From a virus, in IMG/VR virus record IMGVR_UViG_3300027974_000149, positions 1 to 24,859 of that record: a DNA stretch of 24,859 nucleotides, one strand, 5' to 3'. The notes below the pieces were generated by a model. That model was not told the DNA's origin. It did no database searches and saw only the letters and a program-made list of their open reading frames with translations. Below are positions 2,914-22,345 of this stretch, in pieces (within the stretch, counting starts at the first letter, position 1; every line of letters begins with the position of its first letter). The translations under genes and the position numbers were made by a program.

Positions 2914-3105
2914 TTATTTTGTTAAATCAATGTTCTCTATTGGTATTCCGGTCAATCTACTGATATTCATCAGGTATTTCACACGAATGCTTGTGGGGTC
3001 AGCCTTCCAACGCTGTACAGTCCAACGACTCACCCCCATCTGAGAGGCGAAATCACCAACCCCTGCAAAGTGGTCGTGTATTATTTCGTTCAAAATGTGC
3101 CTCAT
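2914..3105 (-). CDS. Cro/CI-type helix-turn-helix regulator
   Basis: A 63-residue protein beginning MRHILNEIIHDHF. The central segment GDFASQMGVSRWTVQRWKAD is a classical helix-turn-helix, followed by VKYLMNISRLTGIPIENIDL as the closing helices of the lambda-repressor-like fold. The frame could extend to 3195, but that extension is hydrophobic and unlike the family and would run across the divergent control region, so the ATG at 3105 is preferred. A perfect -7 box TATATTTG lies six bases upstream of this ATG. It heads the leftward operon with terL and faces the sigma-like gene, as expected for a phage switch. The paired GCAAAT sites in the control region are candidate operators. Confidence 0.8.
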   Translation of the reverse strand: MRHILNEIIHDHFAGVGDFASQMGVSRWTVQRWKADPTSIRVKYLMNISRLTGIPIENIDLTK

Positions 3106-3108
3106 GTC

Positions 3109-3140
3109 TTGCAAATATACAAAGTTTGGTGCAAATTTGC
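3109..3140. promoter_or_regulatory. Divergent promoter/operator region
   Basis: On the minus strand TATATTTG (3119-3112) matches TAnnTTTG exactly and lies six bases before the regulator ATG. On the plus strand TTG (3109-3111), a 20-base spacer and CAAATTTG (3132-3139, one mismatch to the consensus) resemble a Bacteroidota promoter toward the sigma-like gene. GCAAAT occurs at 3111-3116 and again at 3131-3136, exactly 20 bases apart, and the second copy is part of the 10-base palindrome GCAAATTTGC. Regulator binding here is inference. Confidence 0.55.
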
Positions 3141-3175
3141 GACAGAAATGTGATACTACCACAATAAAAACACAG

Positions 3176-3691
3176 TTGGACATAGAAATTTCCAAACATT
3201 ACAACACTTGGCGGCGGTACGCACACGGATTGATGAAGAATACCACCAAGGGTGATGACCTTTTATCTGAAACACTGTTGAAGGTATTGGAAAATCAACG
3301 TCAGATGGCCGAACAGATGGCTGTAACGGGCAAACTACTGTGGTATGTAAACAAGTCCTTGTACAATAATTACAAGGATATGTCAAGTAGGTACAATGTA
3401 AAGTACACCAAGTACAGTGTTCGATGGGATGATAACAGCCAAAGGCACAACGAATTCAAGGAACAACCGTGGTTAGGTTCACGGATTGATAATGAATATC
3501 TTGACTCCTACATTATGTTGATGCCTGAGATTGACGCGGTTATGCTGCGGCTATACATACTTGATGGCTTTAGTTACAAGGAAGTGAGTGATAAAACAGG
3601 CATACCGGTGAAACACTTGTACCGATTAGTTGAAAACGCAATCAAAAAGATAAAAAACAATGTGGTTTTTCAATGTACCTCAAGAAGTTAG
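3176..3691 (+). CDS. Sigma-70 family RNA polymerase sigma factor, phage type
   Basis: This protein probably redirects host RNA polymerase to phage promoters. An N-terminal region-2-like part (ISKHYNTWRRYAHGL then KGDDLLSETLLKVLEN) is followed by a variable basic linker. The C-terminal region-4-like helix-turn-helix reads LDGFSYKEVSDKTGIPVKHL and runs on into VENAIKKIKNN. The start is uncertain: ATGs at 3095 and 3104 are in frame, but they overlap the divergent regulator and precede the likely promoter. The TTG at 3176 gives MDIEISKHYNTWRRYA, which fits where family members begin (171 residues). The 3' end overlaps the next gene by 32 bases. A distant ECF-like factor is the closest description; the sigma assignment is fairly secure but its promoters are unknown. 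Confidence 0.75.
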   Translation: MDIEISKHYNTWRRYAHGLMKNTTKGDDLLSETLLKVLENQRQMAEQMAVTGKLLWYVNKSLYNNYKDMSSRYNVKYTKYSVRWDDNSQRHNEFKEQPWLGSRIDNEYLDSYIMLMPEIDAVMLRLYILDGFSYKEVSDKTGIPVKHLYRLVENAIKKIKNNVVFQCTSRS

Positions 3692-4144: not shown

Positions 4145-4714
4145 ATGAACATACAGCGCATACCGATTGGCCAAATTAAGCCAAACCCTACCAACCCACG
4201 CGTCATCAAAGACCATAAATTCAAGCAACTCGTGAAATCCATTCAGGAGTTTCCACAAATGTTGGACATCCGGCCAATAGTGGTCAACGGTGATATGGTC
4301 GTATTGGGTGGAAACATGCGATTGAAGGCCTGCCGTGAGGCCGGATTGAAAGAACTTCCTGTGCTTGTTGCGGAACACTTGACCGAACAGCAACAAAAAG
4401 AGTTCATCATCAAAGACAACAACAGTTTTGGCGAATGGGATTGGGATGCCCTCGCAAACACTTGGGATACTGCTGAGTTGAGTGATTGGGGTGTTGACGT
4501 TTGGCACAACCCTACAGGGGTTGACTACACCATGTTGGACAACGATGACGTGGAAAAACAGATTGACGACATGGGTGAGGGTGTAAGAAAGGCCATACAG
4601 ATTGAATTTCTACCTGAGGACTATGAGCAAGCGGTTGAATTAGTCAAGCAAGCACGTGAGCGTGGTGACTACGTTGGTGGAATACTCATCAAAGCCTTGA
4701 TTGATACGCTTTGA
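4145..4714 (+). CDS. ParB/sulfiredoxin-like domain protein
   Basis: A 189-residue protein. The N-terminal half is a ParB-like N domain: IPIGQIKPNPTNPR, then VKSIQEFPQMLDIRPIVV, then the signature VLGGNMRLKACREAGLKELP. These folds act in DNA binding, CTP binding or DNA cleavage, and in phages often accompany DNA-modification enzymes. The segment IIKDNNSFGEWDWDALANTW is typical of the phage version. There is no helix-turn-helix partitioning domain, so a plasmid-partition role is unlikely. The stop TGA (4712-4714) shares one base with the amidotransferase ATG, implying translational coupling. Nearest neighbours point to a part in DNA modification or host interaction, but that is context only. 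Confidence 0.8.
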   Translation: MNIQRIPIGQIKPNPTNPRVIKDHKFKQLVKSIQEFPQMLDIRPIVVNGDMVVLGGNMRLKACREAGLKELPVLVAEHLTEQQQKEFIIKDNNSFGEWDWDALANTWDTAELSDWGVDVWHNPTGVDYTMLDNDDVEKQIDDMGEGVRKAIQIEFLPEDYEQAVELVKQARERGDYVGGILIKALIDTL

Positions 4715-5325
4715 TGTGTGCTGTAGTTGGATATATCGGTGAGTATGACGATGAGATTGTCCACGCTTTGTTGCGCAACTCACGCATACGCGGCCTTCAT
4801 GGCTTTGGTTACACCATATACGACAAGGCAACCGACACCTTTGACACTCAAAAGTTTAACCGGTTTGGTGATTTCGTTGGCTCATTGACGTCCAAACGCC
4901 CCACGGTGTTCATCGCACACATCCGGTATTCCACAAGCGGTTCACCGGATGACCTTAACACCAACCAACCTTTGACCAACGGGCGCAATTTCCTTGCGTT
5001 TAACGGCGTCATCAGTCAGTTGTCAATACAAGAGATGCGCGAAACATTTGATTGCGAAATACCACACGAGAATGACGGATACATACTCATGGATAAGTGG
5101 AATGATGAGACTTTCTTGCGCAATCCGGCAATCAGTTACGCGGCCTTGCTGTTAACCGACAACACATTGACTGCTCTGAGAAATGAAAACAGGCCACTAT
5201 ACCAAGCAACCGGTGTAACACAGACCATCTTCGCGTCAACGCAGGACATACTTTCAAGGTCAAATCTCACCGGAATACAACTCAAGCCACATGTAAAGCA
5301 CAATGTCAGTTTTAACATACACTGA
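4714..5325 (+). CDS. Stand-alone class II glutamine amidotransferase domain
   Basis: An Ntn-type glutaminase that should release ammonia from glutamine using an N-terminal cysteine. The TTG three bases earlier would bury the cysteine, whereas ATG at 4714 gives MCAVVGYIG with Cys2 ready to become residue 1. The other family landmarks are in register with GlmS: RGLHGFGY, AHIRYSTSG (Arg71), NTNQPLTNG, FNGVIS (Asn97, Gly98) and HENDGYIL (Asp121). At 203 residues it is only the glutaminase domain; there is no PurF, GlmS, GltB or asparagine-synthetase partner domain in the window. The gene is coupled to the ParB-like gene by a one-base overlap and overlaps the amino acid:DNA transferase gene by 23 bases. 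This suggests that ammonia or a glutamine-derived amine feeds the DNA-modification pathway. Fold is confident, substrate is inference. Confidence 0.85.
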   Translation: MCAVVGYIGEYDDEIVHALLRNSRIRGLHGFGYTIYDKATDTFDTQKFNRFGDFVGSLTSKRPTVFIAHIRYSTSGSPDDLNTNQPLTNGRNFLAFNGVISQLSIQEMRETFDCEIPHENDGYILMDKWNDETFLRNPAISYAALLLTDNTLTALRNENRPLYQATGVTQTIFASTQDILSRSNLTGIQLKPHVKHNVSFNIH

Positions 5326-6139
5326 ATACCACAATCAAAGCAGGCAGGCAGGTGACATTGACCCCGGTGTAACGTGTCTGAACTACCTTTCCAACCGGTT
5401 TGAACTCACGATGGAACAGCGGTATTGGCTTGCGTTCCTATATGGTACGTGCTACTGCGCACCTACTGTGTTCTTCATCTACAATGAGTTTCCTGATTAC
5501 ATTGGAACGGATGTTAACCGGCTATCACGATGGTGGGCAAAGTACAAACAGGACTTGGTTTTTCAAACAGACAGGCAGCGTATCCGCAGCAACGACCAAT
5601 TCATTGACTGCTTCAAGTCATACCGGTCATTGGTAAAGACACACCAAGGTGCTTACTTCAGAGGACGCACTGCGCAGGACATTTACGCAAAGGTCAGTCA
5701 AATCAAATACTTTGGAAGGTTCAGCCTATTCAACTACCTGCAGGTATTGAACAAACTCACCGATGTAACGGCCAAGCCGGCATACCTAAACATGATGGAG
5801 GCTGAGAGTTGTCGCAACGGTGTTGCCTTTGCCATTGGTAGGGATGACTTGGTGGAGCAGAAACTGACTAAAAACACGGCTCAGTTGCTACACAACGCCT
5901 TTGTTGACTTGTTGCGGACACACAATGGTGATATCTTTGACATTGAAACTACACTCTGCGCATATAAAAAGTACCGGTGGGGCAAGCGGTATGTTGGCTA
6001 TTACATTGACCGAATGGACAAGGAGTTGGAACACTATGAAAAACGTGGTCATTTAGGTGGAGTGGCTTGGGAAACACTGAGGCAGTTTCGCATAGAAACA
6101 TTTGAACATCAATACCTTACAGAATGTTACACGAAATAG
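5303..6139 (+). CDS. Amino acid:DNA transferase (aGPT-pyrophosphorylase clade 2 type)
   Basis: A 278-residue protein resembling the phage alpha-glutamyl/putrescinyl-thymine pyrophosphorylases. These displace pyrophosphate from activated 5-hydroxymethyl-dU in DNA with an amino group. Family-like blocks visible are FELTMEQRYWLAFLYGTCYC, TVFFIYNEFPD, DLVFQTDRQRIRSNDQF, MMEAESCRNGVAF, and FDIETTLCAYKKYRWGKRY leading into VGYYIDRMDKELE. The ATG at 5303 overlaps the amidotransferase by 23 bases, and the 3' end overlaps a 32-codon membrane ORF, so the cassette is translated as a chain. The amine donated (glutamate, glycine, serine, putrescine or free ammonia) cannot be read from sequence. The assignment is from motif memory and strongly supported by the adjacent kinase and dioxygenase. 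Confidence 0.75.
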   Translation: MSVLTYTEYHNQSRQAGDIDPGVTCLNYLSNRFELTMEQRYWLAFLYGTCYCAPTVFFIYNEFPDYIGTDVNRLSRWWAKYKQDLVFQTDRQRIRSNDQFIDCFKSYRSLVKTHQGAYFRGRTAQDIYAKVSQIKYFGRFSLFNYLQVLNKLTDVTAKPAYLNMMEAESCRNGVAFAIGRDDLVEQKLTKNTAQLLHNAFVDLLRTHNGDIFDIETTLCAYKKYRWGKRYVGYYIDRMDKELEHYEKRGHLGGVAWETLRQFRIETFEHQYLTECYTK

Positions 6140-6222
6140 GACTTTGTATAGCGTCAATGATTGTCGGAGCCATGCTTGTAGTGGCTTGGTATGAAAACTT
6201 TACTGATAAACACAACGAATGA
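6124..6222 (+). CDS. 32-residue single-span membrane peptide
   Basis: A short frame not usually called by gene finders. It starts at ATG 6124 inside the end of the transferase gene and stops with TGA at 6220-6222, overlapping the kinase ATG (6219) as ATGA. The product has a central hydrophobic stretch (IGLCIASMIVGAMLVVAW) and a polar tail (YENFTDKHNE), typical of a small inner-membrane peptide. The tight overlaps on both sides support real translation, or at least use as a coupling ORF. No family is recognised and no function is proposed. Confidence 0.5.
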   Translation: MLHEIGLCIASMIVGAMLVVAWYENFTDKHNE

Positions 6223-6707
6223 AGACTGTACTGATAATTGGAGCGTGTGGAAGCGGCAAAACTTGGGCGATAAAACAACTGATGCTCGCAACGGGTGCTG
6301 TAGGGGTTGGAAGAGTTTCCTCAATATGGTTTGTAAAGAATGGGGAGAATGTGTTTTTAGGCCGGTACACGGGTGAAATGTATGAAGGTAGTGACAAGTT
6401 GAGTATGGCTGTGGCCAAGGACTTCTTGGGATTGCGGTCAGTTCAGCGTCAACTTGAATGGAATATCGTGGCAGAGGGTGACCGATTCATGAATCAAAAG
6501 TTCATCTCAATGTTTAACCCATTCATTGTGAAGATAGGTGACGATGGTTCAGCAGGTAGGTCAATGCGAAACAGCAAGCAGTCTGCTCAACACTTGAAAC
6601 GGATTGAGACAAGGGTGCGTAACATTAAGCCAAACATCACGGTTGCCAATAGTTCTGAGGCTGTACGCGCGGTAATGGCATATCTAACAAAAGAAATTAC
6701 ACGCTAA
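6219..6707 (+). CDS. 5-hydroxymethyl-dU DNA kinase-like P-loop kinase
   Basis: A 162-residue P-loop nucleotide kinase. Walker A is GACGSGKT (residues 8-15). RYTGEMYEGSDKLSM and NIVAEGDRFMNQKF match the phage 5-HMUDK pattern, in which 5-hydroxymethyl-dU in DNA is phosphorylated to a pyrophosphorylated leaving group. The C-terminal part is basic (KQSAQHLKRIETRVRNIK), plausible for DNA contact. It lies between the transferase and the TET/JBP-like gene, exactly the steps before and after it in thymine hypermodification. Its ATG overlaps the stop of the small membrane ORF. The helical domain known in some 5-HMUDK proteins is not fused here. A generic nucleotide kinase is the alternative but fits the context less well. 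Confidence 0.78.
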   Translation: MKTVLIIGACGSGKTWAIKQLMLATGAVGVGRVSSIWFVKNGENVFLGRYTGEMYEGSDKLSMAVAKDFLGLRSVQRQLEWNIVAEGDRFMNQKFISMFNPFIVKIGDDGSAGRSMRNSKQSAQHLKRIETRVRNIKPNITVANSSEAVRAVMAYLTKEITR

Positions 6708-6727
6708 TTATTGAACCTGCAATACAG

Positions 6728-7495
6728 ATGGACAGAATAAACCTAACACCGGTCAAACACAATGTACAGATTGCCGATAAATGCCCGGCGGTTGACCCAA
6801 ACGTCATTGAGGACAGTGTATTTTGGGATGGCACTACGCCAATGGGTTTCTATATCAAGAAGATGCCGCAAAAATTGTCGGAATTGGTGAATCTCGCAAA
6901 CTTTGAGTTTCTCAGCGACAGAGTACCCAAGTCAGGGATGAATAGAACATCCGGTGAAAATGGTACATCAGCAAAGCTACAACAGTTTAGCACTATCATC
7001 GGAGCAGTTCCACCACGACCGCACATGAAGCGGCCATACCCATCTATCAGTAGTGTACACGGAGTCAAGTCAGCTCGCAACTTTATCAAAGCAATGCTGC
7101 TTGTAGCCAACGAGTGTGAACGGGTTATTGCGGAAATACAGCCTGAGATACTTGAGATACAACGGAATGCTGTGAAGGATGTGGATGAGCGGTTCAAATT
7201 CGGCAATCTATTCACCTCAAGTATCAGCAACTACAACATTTCAGCACCGTTTCATCAAGACAACGGCAATATACGCAACACCTACAACGTGATAATCACA
7301 AAAAGGTACAACAGCACGGGCGGTTCGCTATTCGTACCTGACTACAATGCCTGTATAGAACAAGCAGACCTGTCCATGTTGGTTTATCCGGCTTGGCGAA
7401 ATGTCCACGGCGTCACACCAATTAAGACCATAGGTGAAAACGGATACCGAAATTCACTTGTATTTTATGCACTCAAAGCCTTTTTGAAAAAATGA
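6728..7495 (+). CDS. TET/JBP-type 2-oxoglutarate/Fe(II) dioxygenase
   Basis: A 255-residue protein with the double-stranded beta-helix signature in the C-terminal half. HxD is in PFHQDNGN (His176, Asp178), the distal iron ligand is in NVHGVTPI (His227), and the 2-oxoglutarate arginine is in YRNSLVFYALK (Arg241). The middle segment with PPRPHMKRPYPSISS also recalls phage TET/JBP proteins. Such enzymes hydroxylate the methyl group of thymine or 5-methylcytosine in DNA. With the kinase and transferase adjacent, thymine to 5-hydroxymethyl-U is the likely reaction. There is no cytosine methyltransferase in the window to favour 5mC. It starts 20 bases after the kinase and overlaps the next small ORF as ATGA. 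Confidence 0.82.
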   Translation: MDRINLTPVKHNVQIADKCPAVDPNVIEDSVFWDGTTPMGFYIKKMPQKLSELVNLANFEFLSDRVPKSGMNRTSGENGTSAKLQQFSTIIGAVPPRPHMKRPYPSISSVHGVKSARNFIKAMLLVANECERVIAEIQPEILEIQRNAVKDVDERFKFGNLFTSSISNYNISAPFHQDNGNIRNTYNVIITKRYNSTGGSLFVPDYNACIEQADLSMLVYPAWRNVHGVTPIKTIGENGYRNSLVFYALKAFLKK

Positions 7496-7879: not shown

Positions 7880-8752
7880 ATGGTGGATCTGCCAAGCATT
7901 CGTGAGGTTATCGTCACGCGTACACAATCGGCTCAGGGAAAAACATGGAAATTCCGTTACTATATGAAGAATACAGAAAAAACCAATTACGTGCAATTTA
8001 AGCAACTCAAAGGCCGGCTGTTGACTCAGAATGCAGACCTGAAACGAACGGGCATTTTTGCGTGGACTCTGCCTGCTAATTGGGTATCACTGCCGGGTGC
8101 TGATGGGGTGAGGTTCAATGTATGCCCCAACGCAGGGGTGTGTGCTTCATTTTGCTATGCAAAGACAGGCACTTTCATGTTCTCTAACGTGCGAACAGCC
8201 CACCTTTCCAAGTTGTTGCTTGTACTCAATCACAGAGAACAGTGGAAAAATATGATGGTTGATGAGTTATCACTACCCAAGTACCACGGGAAACATGTGC
8301 GAATACACGATGCCGGTGACTTCTTTGATAGAGGATATGCCATGGATTGGCTGTATATTATGGGTTCTGCGCCACTTGTGAGGTTCTATGCCTACACTAA
8401 AGAGGTGGCAATGATGAAAGAGTTGACTGCTGAGGGTCATATACCATCCAACTTTACAGTCATCTTCTCATTCGGTGGTAAGCAAGACCACATGATTGAC
8501 AAGCATGTAGACAGGCACAGTGACGTATTCACTGACTATGACAAGATGATAGAGGCCGGATATGTTGATATTGCTGCAGACGACAAGTTAGCTGCGATAC
8601 ACCCCAATCATAGGGTTGGCCTATACAGGAATAACATACCCCACTTAATTAAGAAACAGGCTCAACGCACATTCGGGGCATGGCAGCGTGAAGCCGACAA
8701 CGTAAAACAGAACACGAATGAACACAGAACTCAGGAAGCGAGCAATGCTTGA
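7880..8752 (+). CDS. Gp88-family protein with C-x5-C-x3-C motif
   Basis: A 290-residue protein resembling the phage 'gene product 88' family. Its matching blocks are LLTQNADLKRTGIFAWTLPA, FNVCPNAGVCASFCYAKTG, FSNVRTAHLSKLLLVLNH, VRIHDAGDFFDRGYAMDW and FYAYTKEV. The three cysteines (C-x5-C-x3-C) look like an iron-sulfur or radical-SAM-like cluster site, but the family's reaction is not established to my knowledge. The ATG at 7880 gives an N-terminal extension; ATG at 7964 (MKNTEKTNYVQ) is an equally plausible start because family similarity begins after it. The only GATC of the window lies in that doubtful extension. The 3' end overlaps the small-terminase-like gene by 35 bases. Confidence 0.75.
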   Translation: MVDLPSIREVIVTRTQSAQGKTWKFRYYMKNTEKTNYVQFKQLKGRLLTQNADLKRTGIFAWTLPANWVSLPGADGVRFNVCPNAGVCASFCYAKTGTFMFSNVRTAHLSKLLLVLNHREQWKNMMVDELSLPKYHGKHVRIHDAGDFFDRGYAMDWLYIMGSAPLVRFYAYTKEVAMMKELTAEGHIPSNFTVIFSFGGKQDHMIDKHVDRHSDVFTDYDKMIEAGYVDIAADDKLAAIHPNHRVGLYRNNIPHLIKKQAQRTFGAWQREADNVKQNTNEHRTQEASNA

Positions 8753-9734: not shown

Positions 9735-9880
9735 TAGAAAGTTTGGCTGACCGGGACATTACACGGTTTGACGATATCATTCAGATGAAGGTTACAAGGG
9801 TGTTAACGCACTTGACCTACATGAAGGATTGGGTACAAGCGGAAAAACAAAAAATCAAAGCACTCAATAAGCATGTTTAA
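9123..9880 (+). CDS. Tail assembly chaperone, long form by -1 frameshift
   Basis: Reading 9123-9614 in frame 0, slipping back one base on the T run, and continuing 9614-9880 gives about 252 residues. The -1 extension of 88 codons has no start codon near its beginning but is open to the TAA at 9878. It reads FDYRNKLVQKFSRVFEQDSD... then RYGWLDVIESLADRDITRFD, DIIQMKVTRVLTHLTYMKDW and KALNKHV. The GW...LA.GD...D......V...L.Y pattern matches the second half of tail chaperone fusions in related phages. Its stop overlaps the start of the fibre gene (ATG 9873). Programmed frameshifting is inferred from this layout, not observed. Confidence 0.75.
9606..9616 (+). promoter_or_regulatory. Putative -1 ribosomal frameshift slippery site
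   Basis: Nine consecutive T at 9607-9615 sit in the frame as GTT TTT TTT TCG and provide the ideal X XXY YYZ heptamer T TTT TTT. Slipping back one base changes TCG ACT ATC to TTC GAC TAT and opens the 88-codon extension ending at 9880. No stable downstream stem was worked out. Confidence 0.7.
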
Positions 9881-12257
9881 TCAAGTAACCTATAACACAG
9901 TTGTCGAGCGTTTAGCATATTTTGCACAGGCTCACTCTATCATCCGGTCATACACCTATGGTGAAAGCAAGGACATTGACCTGTCTCAAGCACCGGAATA
10001 TCCATTGATGCACAGCATTTTGACCGGTGTTCAGACCGGCGTGGGCAGTCGAACATTCCGGTTAACCATCGTGTTTGCTGACCTACCACGCAGTGTAGAG
10101 GACAAGTCACGCTACCAACGTGAAGTAGTCAGTGATTGTATCCAACTCATTGAGGACTTGCTTGCGGAAATCAGGAATGGTTACAACGTGTTCGGCTATG
10201 ACGTTGAACTCGACAGCGTGCCGTTGATTGAGCCGTTCCTTATGGAGTACAAGCACACACTTTCGGGTGCTGCTGTTTCATTCGGGTTGACCTTTCCATG
10301 GAATTGGTCAGCATGCGATATTCCGGCATCATTTAGCGCACCATTTATACCCTCGTCACCCATACCACCGGTTGTTCCATCCACGCTTCTGTTGAAGACC
10401 AACAGCACTCCCAATGCGGTTCAGAATGTACTTGACCTCGTAGATGGTGCAGGAATACAAGTGACTGACTTGGGTGATGGCCGCGTACAGTTGGTCAGTA
10501 CAGTTGGTACTATCTCATGGGGCAATATAGTTGGAAATATAGCAGACCAACTTGACCTCGCATTGTGGTTTAATGAGAAGGCCGATGTATCAAGTTTATC
10601 GGATGTTGCTTTTTCAGGTGACTACGCAGACTTGACAAATCAACCTACAATACCGGCAGCACAAGTCAACAGTGATTGGAACTCGTCATCAGGCCTGTCA
10701 CAGATACTAAACAAGCCAAACATTCCATCACCACAAATACAGAGCGATTGGAAACAATCGAACACATCAGCACTTGACTACATCAAAAACAAGCCCACCA
10801 TACCTGCTTCCCAAGTCAACTCTGATTGGAATAGCGTGAGCGGTGTTTCTCAAATCTTGAATAAACCAATTATTCCTGCGGCACAGGTCAACTCCGATTG
10901 GAATGCGAGTTCGGGCCTTGCTCAGATATTGAATAAGCCAACTATTCCCGCGGCTCAAGTCAATTCCGATTGGAATGCCGCGAGCGGATTGGCTCAGATT
11001 CTCAATAAACCAACCATACCAACATTAACAAGTCAACTGACTAATGATTCGGCATTCATTACGTCTGCTGATATCCCTCCCATTCCAACGGTTACAAGTG
11101 AGTTAACGAATGACAGCGGATTTATCACCATTAGTGATGTGCCGCCGCAAGTGAATTCGGATTGGAATGCAGTATCAGGTGTGTCTGAAATCCTGAATAA
11201 ACCAACCATTCCTGATGCGCAAGTTAACTCCGATTGGAACGCGGCAAGCGGTGTAGCAGAAATACTAAACAAGCCAACCGCACTTCCACCAAGCGGTACA
11301 GCAGGTGGCGACTTACAAGGCACATACCCCAACCCAACTGTACACAGGGTTCACGGTGTTGACTTTCAATCCGGCACTCCTACTGCGAATGACGTGTGGG
11401 TGTACGGCGGTTCACCTGCTAAATGGCAGCATCAGGCACTTACTCAATCTCAGATACCCAATTTAGATGCAACAAAAATTGGAAGTGGTTCGGTAAGCAA
11501 TGCGGAGTTTGACTATTTAGATGGCACAACCGCTAACATACAAACACAATTATCGCAAAGAGTTGTAGCAAACGCGCCCATCGCCGGCACAACTGCTACA
11601 AAGGTTACATACGACAGCAAAGGTCTTATTACAAGCAGTACACCATTAGTAGCGTCTGACTTACCATCAAGTATTGACGCGGCCAAGATAGGCAGTGGTA
11701 CAGTGAACAATACAGAGTTCGGATACCTTGACGGAGTCACAAGTGCCATACAGACGCAGTTAAACAGCGTCAGTCTTCCAATGTTAATGACACGTGGTAC
11801 GTCTGTCACAGCCATTAATGTTGGTGCTACATCTGCCACTTCGTGTAACATATCACTATCTTTACCATCTACGACAAGTGACCGCACCTATTACATTGAG
11901 GCTTGTTGGATGTTAGCACCAACTTTCAACCCAACTGGCGGCGGTCGTGTTGGTTTTACATGGTCAGGCAGCATCATAAATTTCCACGGCAGCTTTGAAG
12001 GCAGCGCATCTGAAATATCCTTTCGCAGTTTACATGCACTCTCCATAGGCAGTGGCAGCATATATCCGTCTAACACGCCATACTTTGCAAGTGATATAGC
12101 GCGCAGTGCTATTGCCCCAACCATATTTCGTGGATATTGCGATGTAGTGGCTAACTCAACAACTTCTCTAACATTGGTATTAGCAGCAGTTAACGGTGGG
12201 GCAACTATTTCATTTACGCCACGCGGCTCATATCTGCGTGCATTTCGTGTAAACTAA
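9873..12257 (+). CDS. Tail fibre with repeats, fused to an N-terminal tail-completion-like domain
   Basis: A 794-residue protein. Residues 1 to about 150 (TVVERLAYFAQAHSIIRSYT ... VVSDCIQLIEDLLAEIRNGY ... LTFPWNWSACDIP) resemble a virion protein that in related phages is usually free-standing. A proline-rich linker (IPSSPIPPVVPS) follows. About seven copies of a 22-26-residue repeat, consensus QVNSDWNAxSGxxQILNKPT, span about residues 263-469, then two copies of GSG.V.N.EF.YLDG....IQTQL. The C-terminal ~150 residues (from about LPMLMTRGTSVTAINVGATS) look like a globular trimerisation or receptor-binding head. The organisation fits a trimeric host-recognition fibre. ATG 9873 overlaps the chaperone extension by eight bases; the stop overlaps the next start as TAATG. 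Confidence 0.8.
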   Translation: MFNQVTYNTVVERLAYFAQAHSIIRSYTYGESKDIDLSQAPEYPLMHSILTGVQTGVGSRTFRLTIVFADLPRSVEDKSRYQREVVSDCIQLIEDLLAEIRNGYNVFGYDVELDSVPLIEPFLMEYKHTLSGAAVSFGLTFPWNWSACDIPASFSAPFIPSSPIPPVVPSTLLLKTNSTPNAVQNVLDLVDGAGIQVTDLGDGRVQLVSTVGTISWGNIVGNIADQLDLALWFNEKADVSSLSDVAFSGDYADLTNQPTIPAAQVNSDWNSSSGLSQILNKPNIPSPQIQSDWKQSNTSALDYIKNKPTIPASQVNSDWNSVSGVSQILNKPIIPAAQVNSDWNASSGLAQILNKPTIPAAQVNSDWNAASGLAQILNKPTIPTLTSQLTNDSAFITSADIPPIPTVTSELTNDSGFITISDVPPQVNSDWNAVSGVSEILNKPTIPDAQVNSDWNAASGVAEILNKPTALPPSGTAGGDLQGTYPNPTVHRVHGVDFQSGTPTANDVWVYGGSPAKWQHQALTQSQIPNLDATKIGSGSVSNAEFDYLDGTTANIQTQLSQRVVANAPIAGTTATKVTYDSKGLITSSTPLVASDLPSSIDAAKIGSGTVNNTEFGYLDGVTSAIQTQLNSVSLPMLMTRGTSVTAINVGATSATSCNISLSLPSTTSDRTYYIEACWMLAPTFNPTGGGRVGFTWSGSIINFHGSFEGSASEISFRSLHALSIGSGSIYPSNTPYFASDIARSAIAPTIFRGYCDVVANSTTSLTLVLAAVNGGATISFTPRGSYLRAFRVN
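10660..11280 (+). repeat. Degenerate tandem coding repeats in tail fibre
   Basis: About seven copies of a roughly 70-base unit encode QVNSDWN..SG...ILNKP(T)IP(A). One copy is divergent (QIQSDWKQSNTSALDYIKNK). Two shorter units with LT(N)DS.FIT interrupt the array between the fifth and sixth copies. The neighbouring copies around 10,860-11,010 are most alike and could recombine. Confidence 0.75.
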
Positions 12258-21442: not shown

Positions 21443-22345
21443 ATGGCAACTACTGTAACGAACACTGTTTCCTATGCCGGTAAGTATGCCGGTGAGTTTA
21501 TCCGTGCCGCTTTCAAGGCAAACGATACTGTGCAGAACGTAACACTCAAAGAAAACATTGAGTGGCGTGCTGTAGTAAAGAAATTGGTTGACGACATTTC
21601 ATTCGGCGCGCCATCCTGCGCATGGAATCCAACCGGCACGGTCGCAGTAACTGAGCGTTGGCTGACACTAAAGAAATTTAGCATTCACCAAGAGTTGTGT
21701 CTGAACACATTTTTGAATGATTGGGCTGCCGGTGACGTGCAGAACGGCAACTTGGAACCGGCTATGGTTGATGCGTTGCTTGCCAATATGCTTGAAGGAG
21801 TTGCTCAAGCCAACGAGAACATGATTTGGACGGGCAACGGAACGGCAAACCCTACAACAGAGTATGATGGGTTCTTGACCGGATTTGATGCGGATGCTAC
21901 TGTAATCAAGCCGTCTGCGGTTGCTATCACTAAGGCAAACGTGTTCGCAACCCTTGAGTCTATCATAGCTCAAGTACCAACTGCTGTTAAGTACGCCAAT
22001 GAAAAGCCCATTATTTACATTGACCCGGCATCTTGGGAAGCGTTCATGAACGCCTCAATGGCTGCCGGAAATGGATGGTACGCGTATGGTGGACAACCTG
22101 TACCTCAGAAGTATATGGGATTGTTTGACATCGCAGTATGTCCGGGTATGCCATCTTCAACAGTAGTTGCTGCGCGCAAATCCAACCTTTGGTTTGGTAC
22201 GAATGTGTTAGCCGATTGGAACAACGTCCAAATTGCTGATATGACACAGTTTGGCGAGGACAATTTCCGCTTCTCGATGAAATTCTTTGCCGGAGCGCAG
22301 CACGGTATCGGTTCTGAGATTGTTGCGTACAGCACTTGGTTCTAA
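21443..22345 (+). CDS. Major capsid protein (HK97 fold)
   Basis: A 300-residue protein. The N-terminus MATTVTNTVSYAGKYAGEFI then RAAFKANDTVQNVTLKENI, the central ERWLTLKKFSIHQELCLNTF, ENMIWTGNGTANPTTEYDGF, PIIYIDPASWEAFMNASM, LFDIAVCPGMPSSTVVAARK and the C-terminal MKFFAGAQHGIGSEIVAYST are typical of Bacteroidota-phage major capsid proteins. There is no obvious fused delta domain; a separate scaffold gene precedes it, three bases upstream. It should be the most abundant virion protein, and its gene has an A-rich leader. Confidence 0.88.
   Translation: MATTVTNTVSYAGKYAGEFIRAAFKANDTVQNVTLKENIEWRAVVKKLVDDISFGAPSCAWNPTGTVAVTERWLTLKKFSIHQELCLNTFLNDWAAGDVQNGNLEPAMVDALLANMLEGVAQANENMIWTGNGTANPTTEYDGFLTGFDADATVIKPSAVAITKANVFATLESIIAQVPTAVKYANEKPIIYIDPASWEAFMNASMAAGNGWYAYGGQPVPQKYMGLFDIAVCPGMPSSTVVAARKSNLWFGTNVLADWNNVQIADMTQFGEDNFRFSMKFFAGAQHGIGSEIVAYSTWF

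Follow-up and report, generated by a model that had tools for sequence, protein, structure and literature searches.

TET-based DNA hypermodification systems were reportedly predicted by Iyer et al. in 2013. A gene set comprising a ParB protein, a TET/JBP dioxygenase, an aGPT-Pplase transferase, and a kinase has been published for two isolated actinophages, Rhodococcus phage Tonitrus (PMC11955845) and Gordonia phage CaiB (PMC9302106), and this combination is therefore not new in itself. In phages M6 and ViI, 5-hydroxymethyluracil (5hmU) is phosphorylated in DNA and an amine is then transferred to it (PMC6449724); Pseudomonas phage PaMx11 makes 5-aminomethyl-deoxyuridine (5-aminomethyl-dU), to judge from the title of Wen et al. 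2024 as cited in PMC11946847; and for the CmoX/CmoY cytosine system, described in 2025, glutamine-derived ammonia has been proposed to be used in phage DNA hypermodification (PMC12783734). Here we analyze a cassette at positions 4145-7495 of IMG/VR virus record IMGVR_UViG_3300027974_000149, a linear fragment of 24,859 bp (the whole of which is referred to below as the window). As in Tonitrus/CaiB-type clusters, this cassette encodes a ParB protein, a TET/JBP dioxygenase, a PF18724 transferase, and a P-loop kinase, together with a stand-alone class II glutamine amidotransferase (GAT). The interpretation we favor, to which we assign a probability of roughly 0.55, is a post-replicative route in which the product of the TET/JBP enzyme is phosphorylated and then converted to 5-aminomethyl-dU by a GAT-fed amino acid:DNA transferase (ADDT).

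The five genes of the cassette, all in the same direction, are as follows:

4145..4714, + strand: ParB-N-domain protein, 189 aa, first gene of the cassette (PF02195, 2.5e-8; phrog ParB-like families, 1e-26 to 1e-29)
4714..5325, + strand: stand-alone class II (N-terminal nucleophile, Ntn) GAT, 203 aa, ATG at 4714 (TIGR01134, GATase_6, active site)
5303..6139, + strand: ADDT (aGPT-Pplase2 family), 278 aa (PF18724, 1.1e-17)
6219..6707, + strand: P-loop kinase, 162 aa (Walker A, relatives, predicted fold)
6728..7495, + strand: TET/JBP-family 2-oxoglutarate (2OG)-Fe(II) dioxygenase, 255 aa (PF12851, 5.5e-11)

The cassette almost certainly serves base hypermodification. An earlier reading of the DNA (the original prediction) had recognized its last three genes as a thymine hypermodification set, and the corresponding open reading frames (ORFs), each starting with ATG, were indeed found on the + strand at the positions and with the lengths it gave (278, 162, and 255 aa). 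The motifs it quoted are also present, i.e., YNEFPD and CAYKKYRWGKRY in the 278-aa protein, GACGSGKT, YEGSDKLSM, and AEGDRFMNQ in the 162-aa protein, and HQD...HGVTP...R in the 255-aa protein. The trio, which is kept as a set in many viral contigs, was described as overlapping or near-adjacent; the genes are near-adjacent but do not overlap, being separated by gaps of 79 bp and 20 bp. The ParB gene stands ahead of the cassette in nearly all related loci, and its product possibly has a role in DNA targeting or regulation.

The original prediction also held that no tailoring enzyme of the M6 or ViI type was obvious, overlooking the class II GAT, whose gene shares 23 bp with that of the transferase and abuts the ParB gene (4145-4714). 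The GAT matches TIGR01134 (purF) at 3e-7 and scores 25.7 bits against a cut-off of 27 for GATase_6, a family matched by 13 of its 14 relatives at an E value of ≤0.001 (best, 5.8e-9), while a profile of the GAT matches PurF and GlmS structures at 2e-7 to 4e-4. Residues C2, R71, N97, G98, and D121 are invariant in the 14 relatives; as in PurF and GlmS, we take Cys2 to be catalytic, Arg71 and Asp121 to bind glutamine, and Asn97-Gly98 to form the oxyanion hole. Cys2 becomes the N-terminal residue once Met is removed. The protein thus shares with PurF and GlmS a class II glutaminase active site with an N-terminal Cys but differs from them in that their synthase domain is fused, whereas the window GAT has none and its acceptor would be a separate DNA transferase. 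A partner enzyme is therefore required, and the GAT is likely to be a glutaminase subunit that feeds ammonia to the ADDT. No stand-alone GAT of the window family was found beside a transferase in cultured-phage records; the GATs found there are 22 to 32% identical to the window GAT, and those inspected are parts of longer proteins in other clusters.

To assess how closely GAT and transferase are linked, 282 loci fetched by scanning IMG/VR with each cassette protein were compared. All 69 new loci from the transferase-profile scan encode a GAT too, and a transferase lies within 3 kb of 92 of the 95 distinct GATs, the remaining three being at a contig end. Loci fetched with the TET/JBP protein alone provide a less biased test: 21 encode both transferase and GAT, two the transferase only, none the GAT only, and 57 neither (Fisher p about 2.5e-17, which is overstated because the phages are related, with nine distinct transferases at 80% identity). 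Of the two transferase-only loci, one (L078) is cut at the contig end and the other (L065) has a divergent transferase. The GAT remains with the ADDT in several gene orders (GAT-ADDT-kinase-TET, kinase-GAT-ADDT-TET, TET-GAT-(GNAT)-ADDT-kinase, and GAT-ADDT-TET-kinase), the pair stays joined while the kinase slot is filled by three P-loop kinase sequence groups, and the adjacency persists to a transferase divergence of about 30% identity.

The transferase identity proposed for the 278-aa protein is borne out by its match to PF18724 (65 bits; cut-off, 26.2; 1.1e-17) and by its predicted fold. An AlphaFold2 (AF2) model built from 71 relatives (pLDDT, 96) has the all-helical fold of PUGT (8z2m; prob, 1.00; TM, 0.65), and its three significant matches among solved structures are all to this protein (8z2m, 8z2n; prob, 1.00; TM, 0.61 to 0.65; 14% identity), i.e., the 5-phosphomethyl-2'-deoxyuridine glycinyltransferase gp46/PUGT of PaMx11, which likewise belongs to PF18724 (1.6e-27). 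A PDB sequence search with both transferase profiles gave no match, the relationship being detected by the fold search alone. Residues R91, G138, E215, and C219 are common to the window transferase, PUGT, and all clades aligned, and ADDT relatives also occur in Ackermannviridae. Residues specific to the GAT-linked clade are D18, D20, Y51, R73, Q88, K223, G232, R237, and E241. The name of the solved relative makes a monophosphate intermediate at least as likely as the pyrophosphorylated one originally envisaged.

For the 162-aa protein, kinase function was likewise upheld by relatives and predicted fold, on which the assignment rests because no kinase family in Pfam, NCBIfam, or PHROG matched the protein itself above the cut-off. 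It has a Walker A motif (GACGSGKT) with invariant G13 and K14, and while it does not match PF18751 (Ploopntkinase3), 19 of 49 members of its family do so weakly (E value, ≤0.01; best, 6.4e-6). Relatives identified by tblastn include gp3 of Microbacterium phage Terij, which matches PF18751 above the cut-off (3.5e-19) and adjoins a TET gene, and a protein of Methylophilales phage Melnitz encoded two genes from a TET. The best fold matches of the AF2 model (pLDDT, 93) are shikimate and nicotinamide-riboside kinases, and it also resembles gluconate kinases; enzymes of all these kinds phosphorylate hydroxyls. The protein is thus, as modeled, a P-loop kinase of the small-molecule-kinase fold related to Ploopntkinase3. 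HMUDK_hel (PF18723), present in PaMx11 gp50 (5.6e-41), was not found in it. Natural fusions of transferase and kinase in a single ORF (L240:4960-6459 and L242:4963-6468) tie the two functions together.

The 255-aa protein is a TET/JBP dioxygenase, as had been proposed, with 42.4 bits against PF12851 (Tet_JBP; cut-off, 34.9; 5.5e-11), profile matches to TET2 structures (8e-6), and an intact HxD...H...R signature, of which H176, D178, H227, and R241 (the metal triad and the 2OG-binding Arg) are invariant in 20 relatives. IMG/VR encodes 581 relatives. Members of this family are labeled "queuine tRNA-ribosyltransferase" (PHROG 6059 and several RefSeq records) or "DpdA-like tRNA-guanine transglycosylase," e.g., in NC_020847, NC_023701, and PP035218. 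Both labels look like an annotation error, and a deazaguanine system, as the phrog_6059 label might imply, was rejected given the PF12851 and TET2 matches. Kinase-GAT-ADDT sets that lack a TET of the window kind were seen in L208 and in L289, a contig from a WOR-3 metagenome-assembled genome.

Beyond the observed gene identities, active-site conservation, folds, and GAT-ADDT linkage, we propose the following sequence of reactions. The TET/JBP enzyme would hydroxylate the 5-methyl group of thymine in DNA, giving 5hmU; the P-loop kinase, acting as a 5hmU(DNA) kinase, would phosphorylate the new hydroxyl to 5-phosphomethyluracil; and the ADDT-fold transferase would exchange the phosphate on the 5-methylene group for a nitrogen nucleophile. 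The linked GAT suggests that this nucleophile is ammonia and not an amino acid, supplied from glutamine by analogy with the glutaminase half of PurF, where ammonia displaces pyrophosphate from phosphoribosyl pyrophosphate. The product would be 5-aminomethyl-dU, further acetylated in GNAT-bearing relatives, and its purpose would likely be protection against host restriction enzymes. In its strictest form, the scheme describes a glutamine-dependent DNA aminase in which ammonia is channeled from GAT to transferase and thymine in DNA becomes 5-aminomethyluracil with no amino acid intermediate, a version for and against which we see the chances as evenly balanced.

The relevant genes of PaMx11 encode PUGT (gp46), a flavin adenine dinucleotide (FAD) oxidoreductase (gp47), an acetyltransferase (gp48), an HMUDK_hel kinase (gp50), and a thymidylate-synthase-like enzyme (gp51). 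The transferases of the two systems share Pfam family and fold, a GNAT occurs in both kinds of cassette, and the product is likely the same, PaMx11 reaching 5-aminomethyl-dU through glycine and a flavoenzyme. Unlike the window, where the hydroxymethyl group would be made by TET on DNA, PaMx11 makes it on the nucleotide by the thymidylate-synthase-like enzyme, and it has an HMUDK_hel instead of a P-loop kinase and an FAD enzyme instead of a GAT. The radical S-adenosylmethionine and pyridoxal phosphate (PLP) enzymes with which M6 and ViI carry out tailoring are absent from the window cassette. M6 and ViI share with the proposed route the phosphorylation and amine transfer in DNA but differ in that 5-hydroxymethyl-dU enters as a nucleotide. 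The CmoX/CmoY system resembles the window in its glutamine-hydrolyzing amidase domain and nearby ParB domain; in contrast, it acts on cytosine through a carboxymethyl handle and an AMP-forming asparagine-synthetase-like ligase, and the window cassette has no ligase. Tonitrus and CaiB, finally, differ in host group and have no GAT reported, and the window transferase and TET are only about 25% and 27% identical to Tonitrus gp6 and its TET, respectively.

In the main alternative, the transferase would attach an amino acid, like its counterparts in PaMx11, M6, and ViI, and the GAT would act either later or on that amino acid; for example, glutamine might be attached via its side-chain amide and glutamate then cleaved off by the GAT, or the GAT might merely supply glutamate. 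The best solved relative of the transferase, a fellow member of PF18724, is after all a glycinyltransferase, and according to Lee et al. (2018 and 2022), relatives of the transferase install amino acids that later enzymes trim, with flavin-dependent lyases and acetyltransferases reportedly doing the trimming in the 2022 work. However, the GAT keeps the PurF/GlmS-type glutaminase residues, which bind free glutamine, and a dedicated supplier of glutamate would be odd, as this amino acid is abundant in any host. We consider this alternative unlikely.

The genes found beside the transferase also bear on the nature of the nucleophile. Among 125 distinct transferases, 93 are accompanied by a GAT, 11 by a PLP-fold protein (its match is to PALP and weak, 0.0017), six by an FAD oxidoreductase, and 15 by none of these, and no locus has two of the three. 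A GNAT acetyltransferase is present in 26 of the 93 GAT-bearing loci and occurs only together with GAT. As the gene order in PaMx11 is transferase, FAD oxidoreductase, GNAT, the GAT takes the place of the FAD step, sometimes likewise with a GNAT, which would fit a primary amine as the product. A long branch of the transferase tree carries a single, fully supported clade of 11 GAT-less rows, with PALP beside most of them; here, the PALP-like enzyme may be another amine source or a tailoring step.

Some further features of these neighborhoods were recorded. In loci L221, L224, L230, L232, and L233 of the GAT-less clade, the gene immediately upstream encodes the PALP-like enzyme, and there are two ParB genes. 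In L086, L030, L263, L264, and L266, a TET is combined with a divergent ADDT, an FAD oxidoreductase, and a P-loop kinase; in these loci, a tailoring pair like that of PaMx11 is joined with a TET in place of the thymidylate-synthase-like enzyme. TET loci devoid of the transferase (L008, L014, L039, L050, and others) have an exchangeable slot between ParB and TET in which an FkbM-type methyltransferase, or proteins resembling glycosyltransferases by eye (one that was tested gave no Pfam hit), stand instead of GAT-ADDT-kinase. GAT presence did not come out as a trait of single origin on the transferase tree (seven changes), but the losses counted include the window's own locus as cut out (L001), and three of the rows are close to a contig end.

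The original prediction placed the modification on thymine already in DNA, and this remains probable. PF00303 (thymidylate synthase/dUMP hydroxymethylase), of which PaMx11 carries a gene, was found in 0 of 55 and 0 of 39 records, the window included; the 39 are the cassette-family contigs searched, 20 of them at least 33 kb long. Similarly, among the contigs with a window-family transferase that are 33 kb or longer (20, of which 15 have GAT), none has a PF00145 C5-methylase above the cut-off, and the family is absent from the window. Together, these results favor TET oxidation of thymine in DNA. The records are fragmentary, however, and a contribution of host methylases is conceivable; we regard thymine as the substrate with considerable, though not full, confidence.

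Several observations nevertheless weigh against the GAT-fed thymine route. Since the phages are related, the co-occurrence counts are not independent of one another. An ADDT is present without a GAT in some TET contigs, so that not every such transferase requires one, and L208, a contig of 44 kb, encodes a kinase-GAT-ADDT set but lacks both PF00303 and a TET of the window kind. The window is itself a linear fragment of 24.9 kb, so genes missing from it prove little. As to the substrate, the contig of L093 has a GAT cassette with a complete C5-methylase match beside it, those of L155 and L192 have partial C5-methylase matches, and the 12-kb contig of L065 shows the order ParB-divergent ADDT-kinase-TET, lacks a GAT, and has a C5-cytosine methylase some 3 kb upstream. 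In these four contigs the substrate could be 5-methylcytosine (5mC), and L065 is a candidate for a cytosine version of the pathway.

A second alternative extends this to the cassette in general: TET would oxidize 5mC that a C5-methylase of phage or host has produced, and an aminated cytosine would result from the cassette. Phage TETs acting on 5mC are said to have been described by Burke et al. in 2021, and Melnitz has an HhaI-like C5-methylase directly before its TET, as well as a related kinase; the L093 contig has a C5-methylase beside its GAT cassette. The lack of a C5-methylase in the window and, above the cut-off, in all 20 long cassette-family contigs argues against this, however, as does the solved member of the transferase family, which acts on a deoxyuridine derivative, and we judge a cytosine substrate improbable. 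That the GAT is an unrelated passenger (e.g., of phage or host nitrogen metabolism) in an ordinary Tonitrus-like TET-type system is very unlikely, for although class II GATases do occur in other phage gene sets (the PaP3 amidoligase cluster and Vibrio phage Phriendly), those checked are N-terminal portions of larger proteins from other clusters, whereas every window-family GAT with enough context adjoins a transferase and does so across changes of gene order and down to the low transferase identity given above.

As regards the rest of the window, its large terminase is closest to that of Flavobacterium phage 11b (43%), the protein encoded at 21443-22345 is closest to Nonlabens phages P12024S/L (29%), and a Bacteroidetes-type sigma factor (TIGR02985) is encoded; from these matches, the host is probably a member of the Bacteroidota. 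The sigma-70-like factor of Bacteroidetes type, at 3095-3691, opens the + strand gene block. Directly after the cassette, at 7880-8752, lies a gene for a GP88-family protein (PF17338, 3.9e-46), which is near the cassette in a few relatives too. A 794-aa ORF at 9873-12257, in which a "QVNSDWNASSGLAQILNKPTIP" unit is repeated many times, may encode a tail or receptor-related protein, judging by its position.

The GAT is the distinguishing feature of the window cassette. No paper describing a GAT in a TET/ADDT cassette was found in the literature searched, which did not include the key papers, so an earlier mention is possible. The original prediction that the final base may be new is probably not borne out, as the likeliest product, 5-aminomethyl-dU, is already known from PaMx11; what would be new is the glutamine route to an amino group on thymine, the type of cassette being known as well. 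If the GAT-fed route is correct, three or four enzymes would suffice to give thymine in finished DNA a primary amine, and this simple path would be a widespread alternative to the glycine/flavin route, with related transferase clades having exchanged the GAT for PLP or FAD partners. The amine would provide a chemical handle for labeling and likely an anti-restriction mark. The cassette also lends itself readily to testing whether phage TET/JBP enzymes act on thymine in vivo, and the replacement of one partner (GAT, PLP, or FAD) by another next to a single transferase family constitutes a natural experiment on the change of nucleophile in DNA hypermodification.

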